A stretch of 64,000 nt of DNA from the NCBI GenBank assembly GCA_001247695.2, contig LGRX02034331.1:109598-173597 (forward strand). The letters run 5' to 3'. Below the pieces are notes generated by a model that was not told the DNA's origin, searched no databases, and was given only the letters and a program-made list of their open reading frames with translations. Every line of letters begins with the position of its first letter. Position 1 is the stretch's first letter. Position numbers and translations under genes: made by a program. Shown in pieces: positions 11,301 through 63,449 of this stretch. The stretch is from Cymbomonas tetramitiformis (lineage: Eukaryota > Chlorophyta > Pyramimonadophyceae > Pyramimonadales > Pyramimonadaceae).

Positions 11301-13070
11301 ACTGCTTTTTTGTACGGTATGTCATTTTCGCCATTCTCAAAGTTCATTAAAGAGATTACCTTTCAGCAGACGTTCACAGTCAACACAAGGGCAGGCGGTA
11401 AAAAGAAAAGATCGAGACTCGTGAGACAAAATTTTGTTCAACTGAAATCAGGACTTGGCAGGCACCCAGAACCAGCTAAGATTGACAGAACTAACAAAGA
11501 TCACGCTATGTACGCACTCCCTCTGGAGTACCATTGGTCTGGCCTAGGCACAGTTTTCATTTCGAAGTGCTCCGCCTTGATCTGCCGAAGCTGTGAGGGT
11601 AGAGTAGCAAACGGCCACAGCTCAAAAAACTGCCCCGTAAAGATCTACGGACTCACCGGTTCGGCATCCCAGTTCGCAGAGCCCAGCGGGCCATCAGCTG
11701 AGAGCAACATCCCGCCAGGATTTGGTGAAGGAACAGGCCAGAGCACTGATCAGAAGGCTCCCCGCCGCACACTTCAGAGGCACGGTGGACATCCCCGAAA
11801 CTGCAGGTGCTCGGCTTGCATTAAAGGTAACAAAGTTTCACACACCTTCTGTGATTGTGTTTTACATTGCTGCTATGCTTCTTCCACTTGTCTTGAATTC
11901 CTTGCTTGTAGCTTAACACACACTGCAATTCGGCAGGGAAAAAGAGATCCCTTGCACAATCTGAACCGACACCAAGCCCAGGTGAACGGAAGAAAACTGC
12001 AGGAAGCGACAGGAGAGAGCGGCTCACTCAAATTGCTCAGCAAGAAGGAGCTGAGTTGCAAAACAGGTTTAAAGCATTGGAAGATATGGACTTTGAGACT
12101 TAAGTCTGCTGCCTTTCCTCTCCGAAAGATCTCAGGCTGCCATTGTTTTGAAAAGCTGACACCTAGGTTGTACTCCCATTGGCACCACCAGACATTGATC
12201 GGCTTTCAATTGTTAACTTCAGAGCTGCCTGATAGTGCTCATCGTGTAACACAGCACAACACTCTAAGTATGAGTGATAGCCGTAAAACATTCACACGGC
12301 ATCCCAGAGCTGTTCACTCAGTTCCATCTTATGCTAATTCTCCAGCACACACCTGCATTTCTCTTCCAACTCAGAATTGTGCTGCCTCTGCTTACAATCG
12401 ACTTAAACAAGCCAGTAGTGTCAGTTTATTTTTTGCCCTGCTCAATTTGATCTCCAACTTTCTCACCCTGTCTGTGAAAATTCACAAGTCAACTGATAGC
12501 ACACCCACCAGACTGGTGAGACATACTGAGTGTACACTCACTGCGGAGGGCAGTACTAACCAGCTCAACAATAAGGTCATAGATATAGTTAAACACCTGT
12601 TGGGTTGGAAAATAAACAGTACGGTAAACCTTTCAAACAGATACATAGAAGTCACCAAAAATGTTAGTAACTTAACTAGTTTCTATGCCACTAATAAGTG
12701 CTGGTTTGGTAGTGTGACAATACAGTCTGTTAACATAATATACACCTCTGTTAGCTTAAGAAAACAGTCCTCAAACCGAACTCGGCAGGCTGTTAACTTA
12801 AGGCAACAGTATGTCAACTGCAAGGTGCGCACTGTCAGACTGATACATAGAAGACTAAACCTTTCAAACAGATACGTAGAAGTCACTAAACAAGTTAGGA
12901 ACTTAACTAGTTCCTATGCCACCAATAAATGCCGGTTTGGTAGTGTGACAATACAGTCTGTTAGCATAATATACACCACTGATAGCTTAAGAAAACAGTC
13001 CTTAAACCGAACTCGGCAGCCTGTTAACTTAAGGCAACAATATGTCAACTTAACAGCGGCTCAAATATGA
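11244..13070 (+). CDS. LINE ORF1, zinc knuckle-like protein (start uncertain)
   Basis: The open frame runs 608 codons but begins with GTG, and its first ~20 codons belong to the flanking repeat. The real start must therefore lie further in, or be reached by splicing; GTATGT near 11,317 and TTTCAG near 11,365 are a candidate intron. Residues about 114-130 hold a CX2CX7HX4C motif (CRSCEGRVANGHSSKNC), as in nucleic-acid-binding zinc knuckles of LINE ORF1 proteins. A second Cys cluster (CRCSACIKG) lies near residue 190. The C-terminal 155 residues are a duplicated 77-residue unit. The stop overlaps the ORF2 start in ATGA (13,067-13,070). The likely role is binding of element RNA. Confidence 0.6.
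   Translation: MRPREKVEVGYATFLGWHMTAFLYGMSFSPFSKFIKEITFQQTFTVNTRAGGKKKRSRLVRQNFVQLKSGLGRHPEPAKIDRTNKDHAMYALPLEYHWSGLGTVFISKCSALICRSCEGRVANGHSSKNCPVKIYGLTGSASQFAEPSGPSAESNIPPGFGEGTGQSTDQKAPRRTLQRHGGHPRNCRCSACIKGNKVSHTFCDCVLHCCYASSTCLEFLACSLTHTAIRQGKRDPLHNLNRHQAQVNGRKLQEATGESGSLKLLSKKELSCKTGLKHWKIWTLRLKSAAFPLRKISGCHCFEKLTPRLYSHWHHQTLIGFQLLTSELPDSAHRVTQHNTLSMSDSRKTFTRHPRAVHSVPSYANSPAHTCISLPTQNCAASAYNRLKQASSVSLFFALLNLISNFLTLSVKIHKSTDSTPTRLVRHTECTLTAEGSTNQLNNKVIDIVKHLLGWKINSTVNLSNRYIEVTKNVSNLTSFYATNKCWFGSVTIQSVNIIYTSVSLRKQSSNRTRQAVNLRQQYVNCKVRTVRLIHRRLNLSNRYVEVTKQVRNLTSSYATNKCRFGSVTIQSVSIIYTTDSLRKQSLNRTRQPVNLRQQYVNLTAAQI
12626..13056 (+). repeat. 231 bp in-frame tandem duplication at the end of ORF1
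   Basis: Two copies start at 12,626 and 12,857 (period 231 bp, exactly 77 codons). Both encode NLSNRYxEVTK, ATNKC, FGSVTIQSV and VNLRQQYVN in the same order. The copies differ by scattered substitutions, so the duplication is not very recent, yet the frame is kept. Confidence 0.9.
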
Positions 13071-16000
13071 CCTCACCTTCTCACCATATCCTCACACGCA
13101 AAGGTGCCACACCTAAAAAGCAGATAGAAACTCTGATAGAAACTTTTAGACTGAAATGGAAGACACACACCACTAATGAAACAATTGTTTCAGAAGCCAT
13201 CGAATCGCATAGGAAATATCACCACACCTCGAGCACGGATAACACCAACATTCAAATTCATCTTCTTGTGACTAATGACATATGGTCAACTGCAGTCCAC
13301 ATCATTCCAGAAAGAAAGATTATTCACTGTGAGTTTGATATCTCTAATAATAAATACCAGAAAGACATTTTCACACTTCTCCCTCAAGACCTAAGTGTGC
13401 ACCGCATAACCTTGAAACTGGGAGTACATCCGAATAACATGGGGGTTTTCAATTTTACACTAGCCCACAAAGCCTTTCACATCTTGCACAACACTAAATT
13501 CTTCTCAGCAGCACAATTAAACAGAGACCTACTATACGAACTTGAAAACCTAAATATTAGAATTCTACCACAAACGGGCAGAGAAGCTAGGATAATCAAA
13601 CACGAAAATAACAAAGCCATTTCGACCATACGACAATCACTGAGAACTCACCTTCCGAAAATTGATGCACATCCAACAAAGCCAAATTCTGAAAACAAAG
13701 ACTGTAAATCCACCCACACTGCTTATAACCACCTCATCTCAGGCAAAGGAAAGCCTTCTTGTGAACCCCACACATATGGATACCGCAGGAAACACTCTCA
13801 TAAACAAAAGAGAATAATCCTTAAAACCAAATGCACAAACAAAATCTTTGATATTGAGAACATTTATGACGCAGATGGCAGATGCATACTACAAAAAGCA
13901 AAACACAAAAGCGCCATGAAACAGTCAGAAGAATTAGACCGACTCACAAAACTACAACTAGCACAACACTCTAACAATTTAATTATAATGGGTATGAATA
14001 TGAGAGGCCTCCGACACCACAAAGAAGATAAAGACAGTTTAATCAAATTAGAAACAATCTGCAATCTTTTAATCGACGGACGGGCTGATATAATATGTAT
14101 ATCAGAAACCAAGGTAAATACTGAAAACCTTGCATTAATTAAAACCCTAATGACACAAAAAGGAATCCAATTTCGCACGTCTCATGTAAATGAAAGAGCT
14201 TCCATTGGTTCCATGATCCTATGGAATCCGAAAAGTTTACCACTATCCACCTCGGTCACCACAATCGATGGAGATGCAAAGAGAGCAGTAATGACCAAAT
14301 TTTCAGGAAATAACGGTTTTGAGCTCTACATAGCCAGCGGTTATATGAATGATGCTACACTAGTAGAGGAACAAGTGGAATTATATGACACACTTACTGA
14401 CTGGGCAGGGAAGGCAGGAAATAATCCAAAAAAGGCCTACGTAGAGATAGGTGACAAAAACTGTACCATTACCCCAAATCAGCGGGTGTCAGGTGGAAGT
14501 TACATGTCATATCAAGAGCATGTCGAAAAGAACAAGCATCTTTTAACTTATTTCAACAATGACAGATGTTCTCTTAATGAACTGATAATGGACCGTAATC
14601 CAAACACGGAAATTTTCACACATGTCATATCCAAAAACTCAAAAGCAAAACTCACCCATATCATGGCCAACACAACTATGGCAGAAATGACAGTTAAAAC
14701 AGGATGGACGGAGGAAAACCCTTATATCATCTCCGACCACGGGATAGTATGGGCTGAATTTAAGCTCCCTCAAAACGACACCAAACCGGAGATCTCTACT
14801 GATACAACTTTGCCAACACCTAGATTTAATGGTGCCAAGGAAACCACACATGATGAGTACCCAGGGTACCCAATTAGAATGACAAACAAAAATAAGGATA
14901 CAAAAAGGAAAATAAACAGGAAAGATATTGTAGGACTTCTCGAAGCAAACGGATACAGCACAAATGAACTTGTGCACGCGTGCATCAATAAAAACAAAGC
15001 TAGAGCCGCTATCAGCACCATCAAGGGTGACACCACTGATCTCGATCTTAAACGGGATAATACTGACGGCAGCCCCATAACAGTGAGCAAGCTCATAGCT
15101 AAAAATAAAGAGACAGACAACATAGAACAATGTCTAAAATGGCACAACAAACCCAAGGAATGGTGGATTCACCTTAATAGCCCATGGCATGCAGCTCACT
15201 TACTCTCTAGAGGAAAGGGGATGCCGGAAGGTGGTCTAAACTTAGGCCATAACGACAAAGATAACATCTGGCATATAGGTTCGCCTCACCTTCTAAATAA
15301 GAAAGATGTAAATGCCTATCTCAAACGACACCTTTCGTTCAGCTCACTGGAAGTTAAGAAAATCACGAAATCCAACACAGATGAGCACATGACCAGCTGG
15401 AATATTCTTCTACAACCCCATATGCCTGCTAAATTCTGGAACCTGTACGGATCTGAGATGCATTCGGAAAAAATAGACTGCACCGCCCTTTTATTCCAAT
15501 ACGCTACAGGCTGGGTGTCTTACACTGAAAGACTACATAGCACACTCGAAATGGAAAATGGATCGGAAGCAACTAGAAACGGCGGCACTGGCCTCAAGGA
15601 AATGCACCCTGACGCGACATGGGATACCCTGCACAAATTGGCACATCAGGCGGCAAGTGACGCCTTTGGCACCAAGAATCTGTACAAAACCGGGAGGTCC
15701 GAAAAACCATCAGCAGTATCTAACTATATATACAAATGGCTAAACACAGTACGCCGCACCATCAAATATTTGGATACAAGAACTCATGTTAGCAACATTC
15801 CAAAGCAAGCCAAAAAGGCTGCCCGCACGCTACCGTTTGCCTCGCTCCAACCCAAACACAATGAAGCAGCAGCCACATGGGGATTACGACTGCATGAAAA
15901 TTATGTAATAATCAGAAATGCTTTTCAGAAAAGCAGAGACACAGATATTGAACGACGCAAACTCCGAGAAAAAGAAGCCCTGCAGCATCTTTTCTCAACT

Positions 16001-18256
16001 AACCTTTCGAGGTTTCTAGACACAGTCATGGGAAAGATGAAACCTACTGAAAAAGGTGCAGCCGCAACCCCAGGTAGTGATGGAAAGATACCTGAGACAA
16101 AAACAGAAAGACTAAACACAACACTAGATGAATACAAAAATAAAAAATTATTTTCTACTAACCCGACTGAGCCAGATGAACTCCCTCAGTGGCTTACTGA
16201 CATTCTCAAGGATAGCCCTAAAATTCCCGATACGGCTGCCGTGAGACTATTGACAGAAATCACGCACAAAGAACTCCAACAAGCATACTCGGACTGTGGT
16301 ATCTCTACAGCACCAGGACCCTCAGGGATGAGATACTCGCAGTGGATCAAGGGCCCAGAGAATTTTCAAGAGGTTACTGTCTCACTTTTTAACCACATTC
16401 TTATAACTGGGAAATTTCCAAAGAGTGCAAAATCTGGAGTCATCCTTCCAATCCCTAAAAATCCCTCTGCACCATGTAAAATAGATAATTCTAGACCCCT
16501 CACAATGTTGGAAACGGGTCTTAAACTATTTAATACAATAATTGCTAACCGTCTCAAAACAATACTTAACACCCACCCCATTCTCTTTCCCATTCAAGAT
16601 GCCTTTCTTCCGAATAAAAACATAGATGACTCACTCCAAATTCTGAATGAAGTGATTTCGGATGCCAATAGATACGACAAAGACCTCCACGTAGTTTACC
16701 TGGACCTAAAACAAGCATTTGACAGAGCTGAATTCTGGATGAGCAATTTAGCGCTCAGAAAGTTGGGACTCCCATCACAAATAATCAACATCATCTCAGA
16801 CATTACCAATGATGCCTCTAGAATGGTACTCACTGAAGAAGGCCTCACGGATGAATGGTCCCTAGAATGTGGAGTTCCTCAGGGAGAAGTTCTGAGCCCA
16901 CTAAGGTTTGTAGCCATTATGGACATTCTGGCAATTTGGTTAGCAAAAAGAGCAAACGGTGTAAACCCGACAGGAACCACATATGGATATGAACTGAACT
17001 CGGAACGCCATAGACCAGACAAACCAGGAAACAATGTTATTCCTCCCTCCCAAAACCTATTAGAAAAGGACACCACTTTAAATATCTTTGCACGGTTCTT
17101 TTGTGATGACATCATTCTCGTGGGGAAAACTAAAGACGAAGTTCAAGACATGCTAGGTATAGTTAATGAATTTATGAGCTTCATTGGTATTCCCATCAAT
17201 GTTAAGAAATCCAAATACTCTTACAGAAAGCGCATCAAACCTCAGGGCAAAACAGTAACGCGATATGACCTGTCTGATGATTTACTCATATCAGGGGGTC
17301 ATCTGGAGCCCAATACAAATGACTCGAGTCCTTCCATTGATTCGAAATGGATACCCCCTGAGTCACCAGAATTCCTCGATTTCTCCAATAGCAAAGAGGT
17401 AAACAGATATCTCGGAGTATGGTTTGCACTAAATGGGGAATGGGACAAACAGGCGGAAATCCTTATCGACAGACTTAAATCTACCTTAATATCCATCCAA
17501 CTGCAACACATGACTCTACACCAGCTAAGATATGTTATAAATGCGGTTGTAGTTCCGAGGATGGCATACCCCCTTAAAGTTACCTCAGCAATTGCCAACT
17601 CCTCAAAGAATGTCGCAATTGAATTAGACAAAATGATAGCTTCGTTTATAATTAAATATTTGGGCTGCCCAGTTGACACCAATCACCAAATAATCTGGAC
17701 GGCAGTCTGCCAAGGCGGGTACGGTATTGATAGTGTCTTTGATGTTGTAACCGCGTCGTGTATTACTGAAACTATGAACACCCTGTGTTCTGCGGATGAA
17801 CACGAATATTGGCAACACAACCACACGGACCGTATCACTGATCCCCACCTCATCTCACTATACCGTAGAAATAGCAATCTATGGCTTAAGATAATAATTC
17901 AAAACAACGAAATGGGTAAAAATGCCATCTCGGGTTTCCCCTTATCACACTATGCAACCTACAGTCACACTAAAGACAAACGCTTTAACTGGTTTAGGCG
18001 TACAGGTCACATTATGGCAAAACTTGGATACGCTATCGACTCTAAAAATTACCCTGAAAATGAAGCGGGTGAAACCACATTAATCACCACCCTTCCCAGA
18101 CAACTCTACATGTCGAGGAATGTTACCTCCGCAATACAAAAATACAACCTCAAGCACACAGGCTCCTTTCTAACTCCCTGCGGTGGAATGTTAAAAAACT
18201 GGCAAGAAAGTAAAGGCTTTTTCAGACTGAATGGTAATAGACCCCTGGATGGCTAA
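13067..18256 (+). CDS. LINE ORF2: APE-type endonuclease and reverse transcriptase (1729 aa)
   Basis: This protein nicks target DNA and copies element RNA. Residues about 304-565 form an exonuclease-endonuclease-phosphatase (APE-like) domain, with NMRGL, CISETK, IGDKN and the catalytic ISDH. The usual SxIDY position reads THIMAN. A ~500-residue linker follows. The reverse transcriptase spans about 1075-1400, with PGPSGMRY, motif A YLDLKQAFDR, motif B GVPQGEVLSP, motif C FCDD (Cys before the Asp pair instead of Ala) and NVKKSKY. The start ATG overlaps the ORF1 stop by four bases, which suggests termination-reinitiation. RNase H, normally downstream in the same ORF in RNase H-bearing LINEs, is in ORF3, one frame back. 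The N-terminal 300 residues are unrecognised. Confidence 0.9.
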   Translation: MTSPSHHILTRKGATPKKQIETLIETFRLKWKTHTTNETIVSEAIESHRKYHHTSSTDNTNIQIHLLVTNDIWSTAVHIIPERKIIHCEFDISNNKYQKDIFTLLPQDLSVHRITLKLGVHPNNMGVFNFTLAHKAFHILHNTKFFSAAQLNRDLLYELENLNIRILPQTGREARIIKHENNKAISTIRQSLRTHLPKIDAHPTKPNSENKDCKSTHTAYNHLISGKGKPSCEPHTYGYRRKHSHKQKRIILKTKCTNKIFDIENIYDADGRCILQKAKHKSAMKQSEELDRLTKLQLAQHSNNLIIMGMNMRGLRHHKEDKDSLIKLETICNLLIDGRADIICISETKVNTENLALIKTLMTQKGIQFRTSHVNERASIGSMILWNPKSLPLSTSVTTIDGDAKRAVMTKFSGNNGFELYIASGYMNDATLVEEQVELYDTLTDWAGKAGNNPKKAYVEIGDKNCTITPNQRVSGGSYMSYQEHVEKNKHLLTYFNNDRCSLNELIMDRNPNTEIFTHVISKNSKAKLTHIMANTTMAEMTVKTGWTEENPYIISDHGIVWAEFKLPQNDTKPEISTDTTLPTPRFNGAKETTHDEYPGYPIRMTNKNKDTKRKINRKDIVGLLEANGYSTNELVHACINKNKARAAISTIKGDTTDLDLKRDNTDGSPITVSKLIAKNKETDNIEQCLKWHNKPKEWWIHLNSPWHAAHLLSRGKGMPEGGLNLGHNDKDNIWHIGSPHLLNKKDVNAYLKRHLSFSSLEVKKITKSNTDEHMTSWNILLQPHMPAKFWNLYGSEMHSEKIDCTALLFQYATGWVSYTERLHSTLEMENGSEATRNGGTGLKEMHPDATWDTLHKLAHQAASDAFGTKNLYKTGRSEKPSAVSNYIYKWLNTVRRTIKYLDTRTHVSNIPKQAKKAARTLPFASLQPKHNEAAATWGLRLHENYVIIRNAFQKSRDTDIERRKLREKEALQHLFSTNLSRFLDTVMGKMKPTEKGAAATPGSDGKIPETKTERLNTTLDEYKNKKLFSTNPTEPDELPQWLTDILKDSPKIPDTAAVRLLTEITHKELQQAYSDCGISTAPGPSGMRYSQWIKGPENFQEVTVSLFNHILITGKFPKSAKSGVILPIPKNPSAPCKIDNSRPLTMLETGLKLFNTIIANRLKTILNTHPILFPIQDAFLPNKNIDDSLQILNEVISDANRYDKDLHVVYLDLKQAFDRAEFWMSNLALRKLGLPSQIINIISDITNDASRMVLTEEGLTDEWSLECGVPQGEVLSPLRFVAIMDILAIWLAKRANGVNPTGTTYGYELNSERHRPDKPGNNVIPPSQNLLEKDTTLNIFARFFCDDIILVGKTKDEVQDMLGIVNEFMSFIGIPINVKKSKYSYRKRIKPQGKTVTRYDLSDDLLISGGHLEPNTNDSSPSIDSKWIPPESPEFLDFSNSKEVNRYLGVWFALNGEWDKQAEILIDRLKSTLISIQLQHMTLHQLRYVINAVVVPRMAYPLKVTSAIANSSKNVAIELDKMIASFIIKYLGCPVDTNHQIIWTAVCQGGYGIDSVFDVVTASCITETMNTLCSADEHEYWQHNHTDRITDPHLISLYRRNSNLWLKIIIQNNEMGKNAISGFPLSHYATYSHTKDKRFNWFRRTGHIMAKLGYAIDSKNYPENEAGETTLITTLPRQLYMSRNVTSAIQKYNLKHTGSFLTPCGGMLKNWQESKGFFRLNGNRPLDG

Positions 18257-18273
18257 CCGAAATCGAAAAGGAA

Positions 18274-21200
18274 ATGCTTCAAAACCCTGTAGATTTGGAC
18301 CCACAGGCTAGATATGTCAAGAAACAATATAGAGACAACATAGTACCCCCCGACACGGGTGAATTTCATTGGAAAGGAAATGGTGACCGAAATTCCATCT
18401 CTCTTATTCACATTACCAATATTGACTTAGAGGCCATGTCAATACAATATACAGAATACAGTAACAATGCCATAAACCCTAATGTCTTTGTCAGAATCGA
18501 AGGTACCAACAGTCTTCAATACGACTTTGAATATAGCATCACCAATGACGGTTGCATCCTAATTCCAGCAGGTTCTATTTTCGAAAATAATGACCATATG
18601 GACCCGCCCTCTTCTGTCCTTGCTACAGTCAGTGATATTAACTCACACTATGATTACATCTCAGACAGACAGTATGAAACCATTATTGCCAGAATGAAAA
18701 ACAAAACTGCGGAGGAAGAAAGTGAATACAGCTGCCCTAGCGACTCGGAAGAAGAATCCACCCCCAACGCCGAAAAGAGCAAACAAATGGAAGATTATGA
18801 TATGGCAAGCGATGGTTCTCTATTTGCTGGAAAGAAAACAGCATGCAGTGGGGCAGCATATGCCATAAAAAACTTTGACAACGGGATGCCACTTGTACGA
18901 AAGATGAATATCCCCCCCTCAAGAACTTTCTCCGCATCGGGGCTCCTTATCAAGGAAGATATCCAAAACCCGAGTAGCACATCTGCTGAAATTGCGGGAC
19001 TGCGATTTCTACTCACAGAACAAAAAGAGAAACTCCTCAAATCCATTACTCCAATGGTACATGCCATTGACTCCATGGCAGCAATATCTGCGGTAACAAA
19101 GGATGGCAGGTCCATGAGTGCTCGGGACAAACTACGTGAAGCTAATCGCAGAGATGTGCAGGCTGTTCGCCTATTGCTAGAAGAACTTGGCTTTTACAGT
19201 GAAGGAGACCACAGTAAAATCATCCTTAAATGGATTAGGGGTCACAATAATGACAAAGTCCATGACAGAGTGGACCGTACTGCTAAAAGAGCCTCATTCA
19301 GAGGGGGTTGTTTAGACATCTCCCGCTACGACCCTGCCGAGGAACTACCCTTCTCATTATTCTTTTTTGAGGTCCCTATTTTAGGCGATATCCGTAGTCA
19401 CATCAGAAGAATTCAACGACTCTCACACTATCATAATTGGAGAACTCTACAGTCCCAAGGGAAGTGCCTGAGAATGCTCAACGAGAATAACACAGCCCCC
19501 ACCAAAGATATTTCCAAAATAACACCTAAAGCCTTCACCGCTTCCAGAAGTAGAGAACTCCTGGGTCTTCAAGCCTCTCCAGCACGCTTATTTAAACTGG
19601 GGAAAAGCGGGACTGAAAACTGCCCTTACTGCCAACAGAATACAAAATGCACCTTCGAACACATCCAACTTGAATGCCCAGGGCATAATAATAGTTTGTA
19701 TAGTCTTACAGCAACCCAAGATAGCGAACTAAGGAAAATCATCGCTGAAGAAATCTCAGAAAAGCCTAAACTACTAAACCCTGGAAAAGGTACCACATAC
19801 ATCAAAACACAGCCATCGAAACTTCTTCCACTTGCTGACCTAAGACAGGAAATGAATGAGGAATTATACTTACACGCTCTCCCGGAAGCTAGCATGTACC
19901 GTCCATCAAGTTCAAAAAAGAATACCATTGCTGTGACCGCAAAGCCCGAAATGGACCATGTTACGGGAACAATTAAATATCCCGAACTCCAATATGTCCA
20001 AAAGAAAGAGTTTTGGAAACTTTTGGCTTGGCACCGCCTTTCCAACAAAGCAGTCCCATGCTCACTTGCGGAGTACTCGAATAGGGCACACGATATTCAT
20101 GAAGCACTCAATGCATGTAAGTTTGAATCGGGAGACCCTAAAAACTGCTACGCAATAAGAAGAAGCCTCTTAGATATTTTGGTGGATGACAGAAACCTTG
20201 ACAAAAACGGCTGTGAACTTTTCTCCGACCCACTAAATGCCCACCCTAGAATTTACTCGAGAAGATGCATACCCACCACTAGAATGAAAATAGCCCTCAG
20301 GCCCTTCTGCCATCATGGGAAAATCGGCTTTGATGGTCTCGCTTGGGATGCCTACGTGGACCCGTTAACAGGCATTGGCAGAATCGTTTACGGAAATCCC
20401 CCCTTTGATGGGAAGGATAAGGGCAAATCTTCGGCGGTTATGACTACCTTGGAAATGGGACATAAAGCGGCCAACACCGTCCCTGGATTTTCAGGAACAT
20501 GGATTCTTCCGCTGTCTCCCAAAAACCAAAAAAGATGGTTTGATAAAGGTTTTAAACTTGTTTTCAGATTCCCGCATAACACTATTCCATTTATCCCACA
20601 TGGTTATTGGACGGGTGATGACCCCTACGTTCTCCCAGGTGGCGGATGCTATAAGGATGATTTTTCGGATGTCGTTATCATAGCTATAGACAGTGCACCC
20701 AGTGATACTCAACCAGCCTTTGACTGGAGGCCTACACAGAAAAAGATTGCCAGATGGTTCCTCAATGTCCTTCCTAAGTCCAGAGTCACGAAGAAGAGGC
20801 TAGAATACACCGGAGTCAGCCCTGATATTTGGAATGAAGTTCTGAACGAAAGTGACAAAGTACTTCCTTCTTCGCTGTGCCCATGGCCCACTCAAGACCC
20901 CCCCTATCATCAGAATGGTGCTGAGCAATATTATGGAGGTCACCATGACACGACAATCACCAATGCAAATTCCAAGCCCTTCATAAGCACCGTGAAATGG
21001 CCCAAAGTACTTACACTCATGGGGTACCTCCCTCCTCTTTTTGGTACTGTCCTCAACACGATAGGTGTTCCCCGTGGCAAGATTAAACCTCTCCTTAAAA
21101 AACTTTCAAGAATCTGTAGACAACACACCAAAAATAGGCGAGACGTGTTTCTGTTAAACACCACCACCACCTTGAACACTGACCCGCATACAGTTGACAT

Positions 21201-21276
21201 CCTGGGCAGTGAGACCATGACAGAAACAGAAGCTGTGCAACAATCAAACGACTTTCTTCAAACCCTCCTGCAATAA
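18274..21276 (+). CDS. LINE ORF3: RNase H, zinc motif and Dam-like methyltransferase domain (1000 aa)
   Basis: Residues about 175-335 are an RNase H domain. Its acidic residues are in ASDGS, SAEIAGL and AIDSMAA, and it ends in HNNDKVHDRVDR. Residues about 449-467 hold CPYC...HIQLEC, a CX2C..HX4C zinc motif often found at LINE C-termini. Residues about 640-860 resemble phage-type DNA N6-adenine methyltransferases (Dam family): DPLNAHPRIY, then VYGNPPFDG (motif IV, NPPF near 708-711), a helix with LEMGHKA, WILPLSPKNQKRWF, FRFPHNTIPF and a final strand DVVIIAID. The ATG is 17 bases after the ORF2 stop and one frame back, so reinitiation, frameshifting or a one-base deletion could link the two. 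The RNase H call is firm; the methyltransferase call is inference from motif order. Confidence 0.8.
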   Translation: MLQNPVDLDPQARYVKKQYRDNIVPPDTGEFHWKGNGDRNSISLIHITNIDLEAMSIQYTEYSNNAINPNVFVRIEGTNSLQYDFEYSITNDGCILIPAGSIFENNDHMDPPSSVLATVSDINSHYDYISDRQYETIIARMKNKTAEEESEYSCPSDSEEESTPNAEKSKQMEDYDMASDGSLFAGKKTACSGAAYAIKNFDNGMPLVRKMNIPPSRTFSASGLLIKEDIQNPSSTSAEIAGLRFLLTEQKEKLLKSITPMVHAIDSMAAISAVTKDGRSMSARDKLREANRRDVQAVRLLLEELGFYSEGDHSKIILKWIRGHNNDKVHDRVDRTAKRASFRGGCLDISRYDPAEELPFSLFFFEVPILGDIRSHIRRIQRLSHYHNWRTLQSQGKCLRMLNENNTAPTKDISKITPKAFTASRSRELLGLQASPARLFKLGKSGTENCPYCQQNTKCTFEHIQLECPGHNNSLYSLTATQDSELRKIIAEEISEKPKLLNPGKGTTYIKTQPSKLLPLADLRQEMNEELYLHALPEASMYRPSSSKKNTIAVTAKPEMDHVTGTIKYPELQYVQKKEFWKLLAWHRLSNKAVPCSLAEYSNRAHDIHEALNACKFESGDPKNCYAIRRSLLDILVDDRNLDKNGCELFSDPLNAHPRIYSRRCIPTTRMKIALRPFCHHGKIGFDGLAWDAYVDPLTGIGRIVYGNPPFDGKDKGKSSAVMTTLEMGHKAANTVPGFSGTWILPLSPKNQKRWFDKGFKLVFRFPHNTIPFIPHGYWTGDDPYVLPGGGCYKDDFSDVVIIAIDSAPSDTQPAFDWRPTQKKIARWFLNVLPKSRVTKKRLEYTGVSPDIWNEVLNESDKVLPSSLCPWPTQDPPYHQNGAEQYYGGHHDTTITNANSKPFISTVKWPKVLTLMGYLPPLFGTVLNTIGVPRGKIKPLLKKLSRICRQHTKNRRDVFLLNTTTTLNTDPHTVDILGSETMTETEAVQQSNDFLQTLLQ

Positions 21277-21824
21277 TTTTCAAAAGTCTTGCAACATAAG
21301 ATGGTTCTCTGTCCCCTAGGGGAGGGGCCCTCCCCCCCCCTCCCCTCCCCCACCACCCTCCCCTCTCCCCCGCCCACCCTGACCCCCTTCCTCAGCGTCT
21401 CCAAATACCCCCTTAATTCTTCGACTTCCCTCCCCACCGCTCAGATACAGCCACCCCTCCACTCACCCGGCCATGGCTGCTTCTCCATCTTCTAGAGTTT
21501 TTTGCTATGCACCTAGCTTTTTCTCTAGATGTCACCCTGCGCTGAAAAGTGGGTTGAGCCCCTTTGTGGGCGCGCTATAGCAGAGGGAGTAGCCCCTGGT
21601 GTTTTCACTAGCCTGCTTTGCAGGGATACCGCACTCTCAGGACTTTGTCCCCTTTGCTAGCGTAAATGTTTTATTATTATTATGAGACGCAAAAGATTTG
21701 GTTTGGTTTTTGACAGATTCACCTCTCGCATACGGCATACGTATGATACTCGCAGTGTCACTGTCCCATTTTACAACAGATGTCGCTGTGAGCATTTTGC
21801 GATGTACAGGTGTTATTTGTTAAC
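21277..21824 (+). other. 3' untranslated end of the LINE and the resumed flanking repeat
   Basis: After the ORF3 stop comes a C-rich tract (21,325-21,400), then GC-balanced sequence with CTATAGCAGAGGGAGTAGCC, and a TTTATTATTATTATG end at about 21,670-21,685. From about 21,715 the sequence follows the right half of the repeat seen at 29,085-29,240. Confidence 0.6.
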
Positions 21825-22735
21825 CGCAGGTTTGGCGCTCTGTTTGAGCTAATGCCACTATCGCAATGCAAACTGAGAAATTGTGTCGCCTAAAAGATAG
21901 GGTTGTCAAGTGTTCCCCAATCTTTTCGAAGAGATACTCGATGGGGTCTACTCCACGTGAATTTTCGCGAGGAGAACGCTCGTGATGAGGTCGAAATATT
22001 CCTTTGAATAGCGGGTTTTCCGCTATTAAAGGGTCTGAAAACCTGCGAATCTTTCAACAAGGAGAGGGTTAGTACACCGCGTGAAAAAATAAGCTTCTAT
22101 TGTGTGGCATCTCGGGTCGGTTTCAACCGAGATCTCCAAACGGCAGGTTTGGCGCTCTGTTTGAGCTAATGCCACGAACGAATTGCAAGCTGAAAAAAAC
22201 TGTCGCCAAAAAGATAGGGTTGCCAAGAGTGCCTCCATCTTTTCGGGAAAATACTCAAATCAAACGAACTAGGGGTACCCTAAGGGTAGTTTTCCGCGAG
22301 GAGAACGCTCGTGATGTCCAAATAGTTGTGAAAATAGCGGTCTTCCCGCTATGGAAGGGCCTGAAAACCTGCGAATCTTTCACAAAGGAGAGGGTAAGTC
22401 AATGAGTGTAAGGAAACACTCTTCTATTGTGTGGCATCTCGGGGTTTCACCGAGATCTCCAAACCGCAGGTTTGGCGCTCTGTTTGAGCTAATGCCACGA
22501 ACGAATTGCAAGCTGACAAAAACTGTCGCCAAAAAGATAGGGTTGCCAAGTGTGCGTCCATCTTTTCGTAAAATTGACCAAATGAAGTGATGTAAATATC
22601 ATCATGTGGTGGTTTTGCGCGAGGAGAACGCCGGTAAAGTCCAAAACGCCGTTAGAGTAGCGGTTTTCCCGCTTGCAAAGGGGCTGCCGATCTGTGATTT
22701 TGTAAAGAAGAGAAAGCTCGAGTGTAAACGCGTTT
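21825..22735. repeat. Satellite-like tandem array, ~320 bp monomers, nearly three copies
   Basis: The motif GCAGGTTTGGCGCTCTGTTT recurs at about 21,826, 22,143 and 22,466 (spacing 317 and 323 bp). Each is followed by TGAGCTAATGCCAC, a TGTCGCC..AAAGATAGGGTT segment and GCGAGGAGAACGC. No coding function is evident. Confidence 0.85.
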
Positions 22736-58100: not shown

Positions 58101-61100
58101 ATTCAGTAATTAACACCGCCGAAACAGCGGTTTCGCGGTGTTAACATTGGCGGAGCGCGAGAAGCGCTCTTCAAAGCATGCCAGGCGGGTCTCGAGAGCG
58201 GCTCAGATGTCACGCGATGGGCGGGTCTCGAGAGCGGCTCAGATGTCACGCGACGGGCGGGTCTCGAGAGCGGCTCAGATGTCACGCGACGGGCGGGTCT
58301 CGAGGCGGCTCAGATGTCACGCGGGCACAGGTGTCACGCGACGGGCGGGTCTCGAGAGCGGCTCAGATGTCACGCGACGGGCTGGTCTCGAGAGCGGCTC
58401 AGCTGTCACGCGACGGGCGGGTCTCGAGAGCGGCTCAGATGTCACGTGACGGGCGGGGGATTCGATCTACCGACCGATGCAGCATGCGGCAGCGTCTGAC
58501 TCCTTCATGTGAGGTTTCGTTAGGTCATAAAGACGCTGAACGACACTGGAGCTGCACTGTCGCAGGCAGTCGGAGGAGAGTCTCGGGGAGGTGAAGCAGC
58601 AAGGGAAGGCGCACAGTGGAGGGGGGGGGGCAGGCGGGGAAGTGCTCACCGCCGAGGCGCATGTCGTCTGCGAAGTCCTCCAACAGGGACAGTTGGTTCG
58701 GCGTCAGCCCAAGCTTCGCCGCATTCTCACCATACCACTTTGCCCGGTACCGTAGCTCCACCCGCAGCTTGCGCCTCTCCTCCTCCAAATCTGTCACCTG
58801 GCGTGTCAACGCAACACCAAAAGCGCCAGCATTCAGCCACAGAGCCCATCGCACCCGTGGTCAGGGGTGGTCGCAACACCAAAAGCACCAGCATTCAGCC
58901 ACAGAGCTCATCGCACCCGTGGTCGGTGTACACGCAACACCAAAAGCACCAGCATTCAGCCACAGAGCCCATCGCACCCGTGGTCAGGGGTGGTCGCAAC
59001 ACCAAAAGCACCAGCATTCAGCCACAGAGCTCATCGCACCCGTGGTCGGTGTACACGCAACACCAAAAGCACCAGCATTCAGCCACAGAGCCCATCGCAC
59101 CCGTGGTCGGTGTACACGCAACACTAAAAACACCGGCATTCAGCCACAGAGCCCATCGCACCCGTGGTCGGTGTACACGCAACACCAAAAACACCGGCAT
59201 TCAGCCACAGAGCCCATCGCACCCGTGGTCGGTGTACACGCAACACCAAAAACACCGGCATTCAGCCACAGAGCCCATCGCACCCGTGGTCAGGGGTGGT
59301 CGAGGGATTGATGGGCGTCATGGCCGAGGGGTTGATGGGCATCGTGGCCGTGAGACAATGGGGGTTTCTGAAACGAAGGGGCCCTCAGAGTTGCGGCAAC
59401 GAGGCATTTGTAAAAAGGCGGTGAGGATGGCATCACCTCCCGCTCCAGTTGCGCGTTCAGAGCGCGCAGTGACGATGTCTCCACCTTGGCTTTCCCTCGG
59501 TAGTCCTCCAGTTCCAGCACCTTGTCCCCCGGTATCCCCTGAGGAGGCACGCCCCAGCCTAGCCGCACCTCACGCCACACAAAACCTTGCACAAGGAAGC
59601 GGCGGGGGAGCTTTAGGCTGCCTGCATCCCACCCGAATCTGGTGATGCCGCCAGTGGCAGCCCTTTTAAACACCGGACCCGTATTCCCCTCCATGCAGCT
59701 GCAATAAAGGAGATGCCAGAGGGCGCCAGGGTCACGGAGGAGTTGATAGGCAGGCGAGAGGGCCCGATGGGGACGCACGGCTTCCTCGCGCAAATAGGTG
59801 TTCTGCTCGGCCAGGTCCTCGAGCTGCTCGGAGAGCGCATTCATTTTGCGGACCGTGCTCTGCTGGTGCTCTTCCGCTGCCTTCAGGTCCTTCTTCAGCT
59901 TTTTGATCTCCCTGATCCCGTCATGAAACCCCGTCATCATCGAAGGGCTCCCTGATCCCGTCATGAATCCCCCGGCATCATCGAAGGGCTCCCTGACCCC
60001 GTCATGAATCCCCCGGCATCATCGAAGCGCTCCCTGATCCCCATGAATCCCTGTCATCATCGAAGCGCTCCTGATCCCGTCATGAATCCCTGTCATCGTC
60101 GAAGCGCTCCCTGATCCCGTCATGAATCCCTGTCATCATCGAAGAGCTCCCTGATCCTGTTATGATGCCACGTCATCATCGAAACCCTCCCTGATCCCGT
60201 CATGAAGCCCCGTCATCATCGAAGGGCCCCCCTGCTCCCGTCATGAAGCCCCGTCATCATCGAAGGGATGCCTGATCCTGTTATGAAGCCCCGTCGGCAT
60301 CGACGGGATTGGGCAGCGCTCTTGCACATAAAAATGTGCCTCGAGGCCCCCTCAAGAGCCGGCAGCGTGGTGGTGTCATGGGGGTGCGCAGTGAGGCAGG
60401 CTGTGTTCGAGGAGCATACCGCATGGCTTCAGGGAGTCCATACACTCCAGCCTCATACTGCTGCATACGTGAGAGCGCTTCCTCCAGCTCCTGCTGTGTC
60501 CGGACCAAATTCTGCATCCCCCCTTCCCCACCCCCACATCGCACCCTCCTCACGGGCCCAATTCCCACCAAAGCCCCAAGACCACACAACCTGCACACGG
60601 CCAGCCTCCAAGATGCTCGAGTGCAAACTCCTCCACCAGGGGGATGCACCTCAACTCTATGAGGTCCTCAGGGGGGTGGTCGACAACAGTACACGCTCGG
60701 GAGGCGGCGGCATATAGCGGCGCAACACGCAGGGGCGCCTCGCGTGCGCAACGAAAAAGGAAAAGCGTTAAAGGAGGGGGGTGCACTTCACCGAGGAGAG
60801 AGCTGCAATACCCTGTGCGCCGTCTGTCATCACGGCATTCCGACCCCACATGCATTCGGTGCTACGCAAGGCGTGGTGGTAGGAGGGAGGTGTAGGCGCA
60901 CATTGTCCAGGCGGCTAAAGTTGTTGCGTTCCGAGTCGACCCCCTTCTTCAGGCGTGTGTTCTCCACCTCCAGGCTTTTGAGCTTGGCCCGCTGCTTTTC
61001 GAGGGCCACTTCCACCTCCTTGCCGACGTCCTTCTCCAGCTGGCCCAAGTCCCCACCCAAACCCTCCTCACAATCCTGACGACAAGGCTTTCCGCAAGCT

Positions 61101-63449
61101 CAAGCCGAGGCATGCACTGTCCAGGCTCGGCCGCGAACGATCCTATCCGACCCCTTTGCCATTCCGATTCCCGCCGTGATCTTGGCGCCTGGCCCACATG
61201 GCACGCCAGATTAACAAACGGCCACATCCCCATGCCATAGATTAGCCCGCTGCGAATGCCATGCTCGGTGCCAGGGTATGCATACGATATGGTTGTTCCA
61301 TGGATTGAGGTGCAGTGCCCACGATCCCCGGTCTACAAACCCGAGAGACGATGAAGGGGCACCTCATAGTATGCGTCGGCCATCATGGCCTCTTTCTGCT
61401 GAGCGGTGACAAGCGCAGCTTGCAGCTTTTGCAGCTTGTCCTCGCGTGTGTCCTGCGTCCTCACTCCCAACCCTCGCGCCATCCCCCTGTGAGCCAACTA
61501 CCAAAAATCCACAGTACATTCATTCGCCTCCCAAACCCCAACCCAACTCGCAAACCCCTCTCCAAATTATTAATCGGCCCAAGCCTCAGCCTCAGCCCTC
61601 ATTCATCGAAACCGCTCAATCCTGCTACCCCATTTGTCTACAGGCCCATGCCACATCTATAATGCATCCCACACCCGCGCCCCATCCACCACTCATCCAA
61701 CGGACAAAGCTCACCTCCACCATTCACCAATCAGCCCAAGCCACACCCGATTCCTCCAATGTCATTTTCGCCGCCCCTTCAGGCGCCATGCATGTTGCCC
61801 ATGTTGCAGAGGTGTGATCTGCTCCAGTGGGCATCCCCCACCCTGACTGTGTGCCCCATAGACCTGCTGCATACATCCGGTCCAGTGGGCATGCCCCACC
61901 CTGACTGTGTGCCCCATAGACCTGCTGCCTACATCCGGTCCAGTGGGCATCCCCACCCTGACTGTGTGCCCCATAGACCTGCTGCATACATCCGGTCCAG
62001 TGGGCATCCCCCACCCTGACTGTGTGCCCCATAGACCTGCTGCATACATCCGGTCCAGTGGGCATCCCCCACACTGACTGTGTGCCCCATAGACCTGCTG
62101 CATACATCCGGTCCAGTGGGCATCCCTCACCCTGACTGTGTGCCCCATAGACCTGCTGCATACATCCGGTCCAGTGGGCATCCCCCACACTGACTGTGTG
62201 CCCCATAGACCTGCTGCATACATCCGGTCCAGTGGGCATCCCTCACCCTGACTGTGTGCCCCATAGACCTGCTGCATACATCCGGTCCAGTGGGCATGCC
62301 CCACCCTGACTGTGTGCCCCATAGACCTGCCGCATAAATCTGCCACAAGCACAAGTACCACAGCGTGGCTGCAGACCGTCGTTTTGTCTGCAGGAGGGAG
62401 GCAGGGCCACGCACAATGCGATGGCGTATTTCGCCTTCGTCCACCTTCGAGCCCTCGGCCTCGGATTGGATTCTGCTCAGCTCTGTCAGCAGCTTCTCAC
62501 GTTCTTCCATCCCCGCCAGCATCTCCGCATCCTTCGAAGCCAGCCGCTCCTCCCACTCCTGCGCCGCACTCGTGCACTGCTCAGACGCCACCGGCAGCTG
62601 TTCTTCGCAGTCCGGTACCACCTCGAACCGGCCCACCCTCGAATGCGTTTCGAGGACACCGTCCAGTCGAGCAGCGGCCTCGTAGCGAAAGCGAGGATGA
62701 GGCAGCCCTCCCGTTGTCAGCAGAGGGCGCCTTACCTTGTATAGTTGCTGGAATTTTACCTCGAACTGTTCCAGGAGGGACATCTTCTCCTCCACCGCAG
62801 CTGCAGGTACACAGCAGGCACTTACCACATACAGCCAAGGCACAGCTGCAGGTGCAAGCGCGAATGTGGGTTAGACAGCTGGAGGTAAATGAGCCCTGAG
62901 GGGGGCCTGCGTGCGCATGCGGCCGGCTTCACCAGCTGGGGTGCGGTTTAAACCTGACAGCTCCTCGGTTTGCGCAACGAGTTCCGAGCGCTCGCGCTCG
63001 AGCTCCTCCACCGTCATCTCCAGCTCTTCCTCCTTCACTTTCATCTCGCGCTGCAACTCCTCCATGGTCAAGATGTCAGCTGAGACTTGCTGGACCTCTT
63101 CCTCAAGCTCCTTCTCTCTCGCCTGCCAGGGTGCCCCACATCAAACCACACCACCTGCTTCATCAACACGGGGCCACCCCCCCTGCAAACTGCCGCTCGA
63201 GCTGCCGCCCCCCTGCGAACAGTCAGGACCTGCTCAACACGAGGCACACACCAGAAGCTTGACATTCTTGTTTTCAAGGAGCTTGTTGTCACGTTGGTAG
63301 CGGCTGATATCGCGATTACGCTGGAGCAGATCGTCTCCCTTCTTCTTGTCGTCCAGCTCCTTATTCCCAGACTGCTTCTTCAGGCGCTCGACCTCTTGCC
63401 GCAGCTCCTGCACCTCAGACTTCAAGTCCTTGCTTTCTTCCGTGGCCAC
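37993..63449 (-). CDS. CEP290: CEP290, ciliary transition-zone coiled-coil protein (47 exons in window, 5' end beyond the edge)
   Basis: CEP290 builds the Y-link region of the transition zone at the cilium base, tethers microtubules to membrane and gates ciliary entry. The 47 exons, listed in the following entries, join in one uninterrupted frame: 6735 nt, 2244 residues plus the stop at 37,993. Vertebrate CEP290 is about 2480 residues; about 200 N-terminal residues are missing beyond 64,000. Almost the whole protein is predicted coiled coil. Identity rests on collinear blocks: YEAGVYGLPEAM, RGLLYREHVRLRADW, LERWEEDKK, and the C-terminal NAFDPAFFDEIEDLKHDHHE. Introns are short, mostly GTGCG-type donors, three probably GC. 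Exact ends of about five exons were chosen by phase. Presence implies a ciliated or flagellated organism. Confidence 0.92.
39647..39906. repeat. 33 bp minisatellite, about 8 copies (CEP290 intron)
   Basis: Units of the type CCATCCTGTGGATGTGACCG lie in the intron between the 39,958 and 39,533 exons. The left part varies (GAGCACAGCC in place of ACCGTCTCC). Confidence 0.9.
42653..42855. repeat. ~28 bp G-rich minisatellite, about 7 copies (CEP290 intron)
   Basis: Units GGGCGGAGTGGCGCTT plus GGGCTCGGGGA repeat with small changes between the 42,899 and 42,359 exons. The plus strand is strongly G-rich and could form G-quadruplexes. Confidence 0.85.
43731..48117 (-). CDS. CEP290: CEP290 exons 28-36
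   Basis: Exons are 47,956-48,117, 47,440-47,633, 47,149-47,242, 46,679-46,837, 46,032-46,310, 45,229-45,501, 44,458-44,553, 44,162-44,317 and 43,731-44,006. QATMKRLMAQVEEKEREVRE matches vertebrate HQTIANMQARLNQKEEVLKK. GPSKIMESLVAKLKTQLNGK matches PTTTMRNLVERLKSQLALK. The 46,032 exon adds a Ser/Pro/Ala-rich, probably unstructured segment (SRQPSTRSNKADPPASPSAS) where vertebrates also have a Pro-rich interruption of the coil. Confidence 0.88.
45045..45192. repeat. 35 bp minisatellite, about 4 copies (CEP290 intron)
   Basis: CGCCACATGCCCATCGCGCC recurs with CGCTGCATGTGCT; one copy is shortened. It lies just upstream (minus sense) of the 44,458 exon's intron and after the 45,229 exon. Confidence 0.8.
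49160..51829 (-). CDS. CEP290: CEP290 exons 23-27
   Basis: Exons are 51,659-51,829, 51,397-51,459, 50,902-50,949, 50,417-50,502 and 49,160-49,595. The last is the longest visible exon (436 nt) and encodes RLADRESQFFGMQRDVRGVL through LNEQVHFLHK. LLRMRTKELQLKHTTARAEA matches vertebrate ITMLEMKELNERQRAEH. The 5' end of the 51,659 exon is phase-based; the CAG before GAGGCG is the only in-phase choice. The introns here hold three separate tandem repeats. Confidence 0.85.
50085..50258. repeat. 42 bp minisatellite, 4 copies (CEP290 intron)
   Basis: GCGCGGGGTGAGGGCTGGTG repeats with GCTCGCAGCGGAAGGGGGCGCT. It lies between the 50,417 and 49,160 exons. The same intron also has a 2-copy repeat at about 49,680-49,741 (GGACGTCGGATCCAGTGAGAG type). 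Confidence 0.9.
50568..50845. repeat. 45 bp minisatellite, about 6 copies (CEP290 intron)
   Basis: GGGCCGGCTCCAGTGCTGTG followed by AAAGTCCGCTCAAGAGGGGG repeats between the 50,902 and 50,417 exons. Confidence 0.9.
52186..54956 (-). CDS. CEP290: CEP290 exons 17-22
   Basis: Exons are 54,666-54,956, 54,454-54,528, 54,132-54,221, 53,576-53,659, 52,473-52,700 and 52,186-52,332; all are phase 0. The strongest anchor is QRGLLYREHVRLRADWRTE against vertebrate QQSLLYKEYLSEKETWKTE, continuing to LVQ as vertebrate VLQV. REMFDSTQEMLREMQMKYKR spans the 53,576/52,473 junction and aligns with LSELELANKQYNELTAKYRD. The 873-base intron between those two exons holds a tRNA-like unit and a short tandem repeat. 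Confidence 0.88.
52901..53056. repeat. ~60 bp repeat, 2-3 copies (CEP290 intron)
   Basis: CGCATCACGTACATCGGCTG with CACTGTGCCTGCGTCGAAT repeats in the intron between the 53,576 and 52,473 exons. Confidence 0.75.
53180..53251 (-). tRNA. tRNA-like gene, probably a pseudogene, with intact Pol III boxes
   Basis: The minus strand carries a 72-base tRNA-like unit. It begins GGTTGGAATAGCTCAGTGG, with a perfect D-arm GCTC..GAGC and A-box, then a B-box GGTTCGATTCC, and is followed directly by TTTT as a Pol III terminator. The acceptor ends pair with one mismatch. The anticodon stem (CCCAT/GCGGG) and T-stem have mismatches. The loop reads CATCAAA without the universal U33, so the amino acid cannot be assigned (TCA by position). 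It lies in a CEP290 intron on the same strand. Confidence 0.5.
55240..55380. repeat. ~55 bp repeat, about 2.3 copies (CEP290 intron)
   Basis: GCGCATGGGAGATCAGGCGA with GGCCGGGGAGGTCAGACAGG repeats between the 55,472 and 54,666 exons. Confidence 0.85.
55472..57524 (-). CDS. CEP290: CEP290 exons 11-16
   Basis: Exons are 57,466-57,524, 57,206-57,343, 56,866-56,934, 56,565-56,678, 55,940-56,125 and 55,472-55,615. The ends of the 57,466, 55,940 and 55,472 exons at their 5' side were picked to keep phase. RPRLERIISDLEKAM matches vertebrate IPSLERLVNAIESKN. The 55,940 exon encodes a run of nine Gly (from a CCG/GCC trinucleotide tract), probably a length-variable insertion. PSTVTVIGDAPMLEERLPNV lies in the 55,472 exon just before the EERLEKI segment. 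Confidence 0.8.
57690..57840. repeat. ~33 bp degenerate minisatellite (CEP290 intron)
   Basis: GGACATGCTCACCCGGAGG and GCGCATGCTCATGCGGAG alternate with AATCGCGCT or GATCATCCT. They lie in the same long intron (57,525-58,649) as the 36 bp array. Confidence 0.75.
58183..58458. repeat. 36 bp minisatellite, about 8 copies (CEP290 intron)
   Basis: GGGCGGGTCTCGAGAGCGGC followed by TCAGATGTCACGCGAC repeats. One copy is shortened near 58,304-58,335. Confidence 0.9.
58650..61452 (-). CDS. CEP290: CEP290 exons 5-10
   Basis: Exons are 61,363-61,452, 60,902-61,039, 60,420-60,511, 59,779-59,911, 59,437-59,520 and 58,650-58,797. YEAGVYGLPEAM in the 60,420 exon matches vertebrate YESGVYGLEDAV. EIKKLKKDLKAAEEHQQ and LAEQNTYLREEA follow in the same order as vertebrate EIKNCKNQI...LDENEALRERV. 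Then come VLELEDYRGKAK and LEEERRKLRVELRYRAKW, matching LEEERLDLKKKIRQMAQE. The intron before the 59,779 exon carries about ten copies of a repeat that contains the splice acceptor itself. Confidence 0.9.
58805..59297. repeat. 61-62 bp minisatellite, 8 copies (CEP290 intron)
   Basis: ATTCAGCCACAGAG recurs at 58,831, 58,893, 58,954, 59,016, 59,077, 59,138, 59,199 and 59,260. Two sub-types (GTCAGGGGTGGTCG or GTCGGTGTACACG linkers) alternate at first and then one takes over, showing higher-order spread. It fills most of the intron between the 59,437 and 58,650 exons. Confidence 0.95.
59912..60290. repeat. ~40 bp minisatellite, about 10 copies, containing the exon 8 splice acceptor
   Basis: CTCCCTGATCCCGTCATGAA recurs about every 40 bp. 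On the minus strand each copy reads GGGATCAG then GGAG, the same as the acceptor and first four exon bases of the 59,779-59,911 exon. Confidence 0.9.
61815..62335. repeat. ~58 bp minisatellite, about 9 copies (CEP290 intron)
   Basis: CATAGACCTGCTGCATACAT with CCGGTCCAGTGGGCAT and CACCCTGACTGTGTGCC repeats with very few differences. It lies between the 62,415 and 61,363 exons. Confidence 0.95.
62415..63449 (-). CDS. CEP290: CEP290 exons 1-4 of the window (N-terminal part)
   Basis: Exons are 63,252-63,449, 62,954-63,122, 62,736-62,800 and 62,415-62,678. Donors are GTGTGT, GTTTAA, GTAAGG and GTGCGT; phases are 0, 1/2 and 0. The coiled-coil sequence includes SKDLKSEVQELRQEVERLKK and ELEMTVEELERERSEL. 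The fourth exon holds AAQEWEERLASKDAEML, aligning with the vertebrate segment AKVEEWKLILSSKDDEI near residue 320. Compared with vertebrates the first exon here corresponds to about residue 190. Earlier exons are outside the window. Confidence 0.85.

Follow-up and report, generated by a model that had tools for sequence, protein, structure and literature searches.

The carriage of methyltransferases by retroelements is a known theme. In excerpts of two papers, DIRS elements are described with Dam, and Gypsy, DIRS and LINE (long interspersed nuclear element) retroelements with cytosine methyltransferases (PMC5890265, PMC6338049); according to an excerpt of a third, the polyproteins of DIRS elements hold a Dam methylase after RNase H (PMC3266345). 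One such LINE, SymbioLINE-Dnmt of Symbiodinium, encodes a C5-cytosine DNA methyltransferase (DNMT) in a separate upstream open reading frame (ORF), ORF1, as stated in the excerpt of PMC5890265. Extra domains of other kinds are found on elements that lack long terminal repeats (non-LTR elements): in an excerpt of PMC4640811, Dualen, one of the clades with RNase H, has two endonucleases, and some Utopia and NeSL elements encode an N-terminal Ulp1-like protease. Among host proteins, PCIF1, also called CAPAM, the mRNA cap-specific adenosine N6-methyltransferase (PF12237), has the layout WW-linker-HD-MTD, in which the helical domain (HD) binds the cap and precedes the methyltransferase domain (MTD) (excerpt of PMC10544176), and in the excerpt of one survey CAPAM is known only from eukaryotes (PMC8868631). 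In this paper, we describe a LINE of the green alga Cymbomonas tetramitiformis, present in a 64,000-nucleotide stretch of contig LGRX02034331.1 (positions 109,598 to 173,597; hereafter the window), whose protein is predicted to end in a methyltransferase of the adenine type.

We read this element as a LINE with a C-terminal, apparently working S-adenosylmethionine (SAM)-dependent N6-adenine methyltransferase that acts on the element's own RNA, and we give this statement as a whole a probability of about 0.48; very probably, the domain is a genuine methyltransferase of the N6-adenine type kept by selection. Such a domain is unusual on a LINE and extends the theme outlined above. CAPAM/PCIF1 is a host protein, whereas here the domain is fused to a LINE protein. 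SymbioLINE-Dnmt resembles our element in being a LINE with a nucleic-acid methyltransferase under purifying selection, as far as its excerpt goes, but its enzyme is of the C5-cytosine type in a separate ORF, while ours is of the adenine type at the C-terminus of a single reverse transcriptase (RT) polyprotein, and no Pfam match to a C5-cytosine methyltransferase domain was found in the LINE ORF. The Dam enzymes of DIRS elements and phages share with it the adenine type, the NPPF/Y motif, the place after RNase H in a polyprotein and a profile similarity around NPPF; on the other hand, the LINE domain has no match to the Dam family PF05869, and the LINE has an endonuclease-like region, an RT and a TTA tail. 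When 3005 aa of an intact ORF were scanned with Pfam, RVT_1 was the only match and no tyrosine recombinase was found; one in a separate ORF was not sought. Dualen/RandI and Utopia/NeSL are likewise non-LTR elements with extra domains, but the C-terminal domain of Utopia is a restriction-like endonuclease and that of our element has a predicted methyltransferase fold. Neither a LINE with an adenine methyltransferase nor a retroelement with a CAPAM-like one was found among the papers listed in searches of the open-licence PubMed Central literature, in which a report may have been missed. The initial annotation knew of no described LINE of this layout; DNA methyltransferases do occur on known LINEs, though of the cytosine type (excerpt of PMC5890265).

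The element is a high-copy non-LTR retrotransposon. When 381 aa of the C-terminal part of its protein were searched against the 851.7-Mb assembly (25,745 contigs), at least 108 matches with 97-100% identity were found, the window copy included, this number being a lower bound, as 108 of 4443 first-look candidates were scored; the query region is free of stops in 104 of them, and for 10 the surrounding open frame measures 3128-3170 aa. A single open frame of 3128 aa that starts with M is present in each of the copies examined at full length (C6926, C8035 and C489). In this intact protein the N-terminal region is followed by an endonuclease-like region, the RT, RNase H, a zinc motif and the methyltransferase, an order that bears out the initial annotation of a methyltransferase domain located after an RNase H and a zinc motif in a non-LTR retrotransposon. 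In the window the protein is divided between two long ORFs on the plus strand, 13067-18256 (1729 aa) and 18274-21276 (1000 aa, ORF3), so that ORF3, taken at first for an ORF of its own, corresponds to the C-terminal part of the single ORF in the intact copies. By tblastn against the intact ORF, the window copy aligned in one frame with residues 387-2118 and in another with residues 2119-3128; since the alignment starts at residue 387 and switches frame near 18244, the first 386 codons and the continuity of the frame have been lost. The junction of the missing codons lies at about 13054/13055 and adjoins a leader with a 231-bp tandem repeat, while C6926, C8035 and C489 are open where the frame of the window copy breaks. 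The element has a sharp 3' end: the 3' untranslated region (UTR) is common to the four compared copies up to a TTA-repeat tail, after which the flanks differ. A TTA tail with differing flanks is seen in 11 of the 30 loci fetched (the window copy included), the other 19 being unmatched by the pattern or cut off short of the tail. The LINE has probably been active recently. The features of the window copy are as follows, rows of the family alignment being those of the 24-row alignment described further below.

12401..13054, plus strand: part of the 5' leader with the 231-bp tandem repeat (12625-13050), from blastn against C8035 and C6926 and from Tandem Repeats Finder; 12401 is the start of the compared piece, not a mapped 5' end.
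13067..18256, plus strand: first part of the broken ORF, with endonuclease-like region and RT, colinear with intact residues 387-2118.
14033..14332, plus strand: region like AP endonucleases of the endonuclease/exonuclease/phosphatase (EEP) type; PF03372, E 0.16, 12.2 bits, short of the cut-off of 24.5.
14102, 14450 and 14732, plus strand: motifs SETK (in the EEP region), GDKN and SDHG (both past the Pfam match).
16451..17245, plus strand: reverse transcriptase domain, with FCDD at 17099; PF00078, E 2.5e-22, 80 bits.
18244..18274, plus strand: frame break between the two ORFs, with the tblastn frame change at 18244.
18274..21276, plus strand: ORF3, the C-terminal 1000 aa of the protein, colinear with intact residues 2119-3128.
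18685..19296, plus strand: RNase H domain, ORF3 residues 138-341; RNase H family PHROG 531, E 1.3e-4, with no Pfam match in the region.
19621..19677, plus strand: zinc-type motif CPYC-x9-H-x4-C, by motif position; zf-RVT matched weakly in 2 of the 24 family rows.
19840..20964, plus strand: methyltransferase region as modelled, ORF3 residues 523-897.
20158..20763, plus strand: approximate Rossmann core common to CAPAM and other adenine methyltransferases, model residues 107-308.
20212..20241, plus strand: motif CELFSDPLNA (family type ELFSN..N).
20389..20406, plus strand: YGNPPF.
20395..20406, plus strand: catalytic-type motif NPPF.
20500..20517, 20563..20574 and 20668..20691, plus strand: WILPLS, FRFP and DVVIIAID, all in frame in ORF3.
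21277..21683, plus strand: 3' UTR ending in the TTA-repeat tail, followed by unrelated flank.

The motifs SETK, GDKN and SDHG, which we take to be those of EEP enzymes, occur in this order in the endonuclease-like region, whose match to PF03372 is the one below the cut-off. About 140 bases past the 3' end of the element starts a tandem repeat of ~323 bp (2.7 copies, 21822-22686).

A structure predicted for the methyltransferase region reached a mean pLDDT (predicted local distance difference test) of 78.9, while a prediction for the whole of ORF3 from three sequences (mean pLDDT 33) was discarded. The 50 solved-structure matches listed are SAM-dependent methyltransferases by title, save a few with uninformative titles, and the domain, on this model, is of the Rossmann SAM-methyltransferase type, in agreement with the fold expected in the initial annotation. 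The nearest solved fold among the matches listed is the RNA enzyme CAPAM/PCIF1, at 10-11% identity, and the model shows the fold of the CAPAM methyltransferase domain; the matches to human CAPAM start at residues 166-167, while those to the zebrafish protein span only residues 419-673. NPPF stands as motif IV in this predicted fold, a trait (NPPF/Y) common to many adenine methyltransferases.

The motifs are also conserved. All those named in the initial annotation lie in frame in ORF3 at 20212-20691, and they go beyond chance, as all 30 genomic loci examined, the window copy among them, contain NPPF and nearly all scored matches are free of stops. DPLNA, which had been listed among them, proved to be a change of the window copy, with NPLNA in the other 29 loci; this private N-to-D change would be in keeping with a dead copy. 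Homologue searches gathered 26 proteins, of which nearly all are fragmentary and come from contigs shorter than 5 kb (ENA, NCBI, JGI), among them P0002, a Cymbomonas tetramitiformis relative of ORF3; the proteins of the later searches have 28-96% identity to the window domain. The working alignment, A6, has 24 rows including the window. P0011, P0024 and P0026 were left out before motifs were counted, P0011 and P0026 being off the motifs and P0024, which is still in alignment A5, being garbled past its first motif, ELFSNILS, where S replaces the last asparagine. NPP[FY] is found in 15 of the 17 A6 rows that reach motif IV (window included), down to about 30% identity, so that the homologues, too, uphold the motif; the exceptions, KPPF (P0016) and NLPF (P0025), are both fragments. 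The last asparagine of the upstream ELFSN..N-type motif is kept in all 19 A6 rows that reach it. Just upstream of the domain, a comparable zinc motif occurs in at least P0001, P0002, P0005, P0009 and P0013, and the order of zinc motif and methyltransferase therefore predates the LINE family of the window.

Furthermore, the domain appears to be retained under purifying selection like the enzymes of the LINE, as judged from comparisons of copies. The ratio of non-synonymous to synonymous substitution rates (dN/dS) between C6926 and C8035, for domain borders placed by the analyst, amounts to 0.10 for the methyltransferase region (21 synonymous and 8 non-synonymous differences), as for RNase H (0.10), with 0.12 in the endonuclease region, 0.03 in the RT, 0.30 in the zinc region and 0.32 in the N-terminal region, the last of which evolves faster than the enzymatic domains. 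C8035 and C489 also give 0.10 in the methyltransferase region, and the methyltransferase domain shares 70% identity with P0001, versus 54% for the aligned ORF3.

The domain could instead be a DNA N6-adenine methyltransferase that descended from the Dam-type methylase of the genome's DIRS or other retroelements and acts on cDNA or genomic copies, an alternative that we hold to be well possible, at clearly less than even odds. Several observations weigh for it or otherwise against an RNA enzyme of the CAPAM kind. In comparisons of hidden Markov models (HMM-HMM), made with 100 column-shuffled nulls each and a CAPAM profile of two sequences only, the LINE domain scored 26.1 with the genome's own Dam over 57 columns around NPPF, above all 100 nulls (maximum 22.4), and 17.8 with CAPAM over 127 colinear columns, where the 95th percentile of the nulls is 17.8 and their maximum 25.0; Dam with CAPAM gave 27.6, a score without a control of its own. 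The best match to PF12237 had 13.6 bits (P0010, E 0.052) against a cut-off of 31.1 and was the only one among the 24 rows, while DUF832 matched 3 of the 24 (best E 0.017) and, with the consensus of the distant subgroup, was better (E 0.018) than PCIF1 and MIOS_WD40 (0.17 each). The cap-binding helical domain of CAPAM is not clearly present in the model, and in plain Foldseek 9g5b, a chain from a human mitochondrial ribosome assembly intermediate that is probably a KsgA-type rRNA methyltransferase, comes just ahead of CAPAM (E 6.1e-5 and 7.7e-5). With one Dam query no solved structure of a Dam (PF05869) was found, so that the fold search does not weigh Dam against CAPAM and the absence of Dam from its matches is uninformative. 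The copy in the window is a defective one. DIRS elements show the same succession of RNase H and methyltransferase, both in an excerpt of PMC3266345 and, by eye, in loci L045, L049 and L057; the genome is rich in PF05869 (at least 150 matches scored of 7257 candidates, 150 of 150 over the cut-off); and a phage protein named DNA N-6-adenine-methyltransferase appears at rank 20 of the viral fold matches, with a template modelling score (TM-score) by target length of 0.51. Against descent from Dam, no PF05869 match was obtained for ORF3 or for any of the 24 rows, although three true Dam domains from other retroelements of the same genome match it at 1.2e-13 to 1.3e-14; the match to the CAPAM fold extends much further and starts ahead of the core; and the P-value against Dam is unstable, as it shifts with the version of the alignment (0.0085, 0.00048 and 0.0074 in three versions). 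Aligning the profiles of the LINE domain and Dam globally was unsuccessful (E 0.72), and Pfam had no match for the whole-family consensus. In the PDB, sequence searches that started from ORF3, P0010, two profiles of the family and the subgroup consensus found no methyltransferase, and PHROGs returned only RNase H and ribonuclease families for ORF3. Pattern-based scans, of limited reach, found no relative of ORF3 or P0001 in viral contigs and none of the methyltransferase domain in a prokaryote contig scan; the CAPAM motif pattern had one match in viral contigs, which is unrelated. The LINE domain, Dam and CAPAM may form one superfamily of NPPF enzymes. As the sequence tests disagree with the fold, we assign the domain to neither Pfam family and term it CAPAM-like in fold. 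Of the Dam-like N6-adenine methyltransferase first proposed, the predicted SAM-methyltransferase fold and NPPF are retained and the Dam name is not, since PF05869 is not matched and the nearest fold is CAPAM/PCIF1; the label of a Dam or DNA enzyme is weaker than that of an N6-adenine methyltransferase.

A fold without catalysis, serving the LINE protein as a nucleic-acid-binding or scaffolding part, would fit with an activity that is purely predicted, with the altered motifs of the fragments P0016 and P0025 and with the loss of the conserved asparagine in the window copy; NPP[FY] in 15 of 17 rows, NPPF in every locus and a dN/dS of 0.10 speak against it, and we consider it improbable. Hardly credible is that there is no methyltransferase at all, the motifs being due to chance or to a degenerate restriction-like endonuclease. 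Many LINEs carry a restriction-like endonuclease after a CCHC motif, the zinc motif presumably resembles that ahead of such enzymes, and no Pfam match exceeds the cut-off in the domain; this explanation is contradicted by the confidence of the predicted model, by the methyltransferase titles among the 50 matches listed and by the conservation of NPPF. A C-terminal restriction-like endonuclease, considered owing to the zinc motif, was rejected on the predicted fold.

In our judgement RNA is at least as likely a substrate as DNA. The only ground for passing from the fold to an RNA substrate is that CAPAM is the nearest solved fold. Since the proteins of LINEs associate in cis with the mRNA that encodes them, a C-terminal adenosine methyltransferase would meet the RNA of the element first. 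In the proposed RNA-methylating LINE, the protein would bind its own transcript in cis and its C-terminal domain would transfer a methyl group to the N6 of adenosines in that RNA, possibly near the 5' end, giving m6A (N6-methyladenosine) or m6Am (its 2'-O-methylated form); the mark could stabilise the RNA, raise its translation or label it as self ahead of target-primed reverse transcription. A more specific version, in which the LINE encodes a CAPAM-like cap-adenosine (m6Am) writer that N6-methylates, in cis, the first adenosine of the capped LINE transcript, seems rather unlikely. If RNA is the substrate, a mobile element would own a writer of the epitranscriptome; if the cap-writer version is true, this would be, as far as we know, the first RNA adenosine methyltransferase encoded by a retrotransposon, and the LINE would control the stability, translation or recognition of its own RNA without the epitranscriptome enzymes of the host. 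The element would also be of interest for the origin of CAPAM. At least ten full-length open copies exist, with relatives in other datasets, and the question of the substrate is therefore directly testable in one alga.

The N-terminal ~385 codons that the window copy lacks (for example G000:C6926:9638-10792) contain YIYDPFG...NCGTW, which by eye we take to resemble a Ulp1-type cysteine protease; a Pfam scan of this region gave no Ulp1-type match. The genome seems to hold several types of retroelements with domains of the adenine-methyltransferase type. Eight loci (L044-L049, L053 and L057) are DIRS-like by eye, with an RNase-H-like stretch directly followed by a Dam domain, the PF05869 match being 1.3e-14 in L045 and 3e-14 in L049. 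A second abundant element type with a Dam domain is represented by L050, L051, L052, L054, L056 and L060-L063; in L050 the domain matches PF05869 at 1.2e-13 in an open frame of 2557 aa, and matches of similar score are found in frames as long as 3110 aa. Downstream of Dam in loci of the L050 type the sequence resembles, by eye, the zinc-binding region of a Ty3-type integrase, and this may be an LTR element. Elsewhere in the window there are two minisatellites of high identity, at 58809-59291 (61-bp unit, 7.9 copies) and 61823-62340 (58-bp unit, 8.9 copies).
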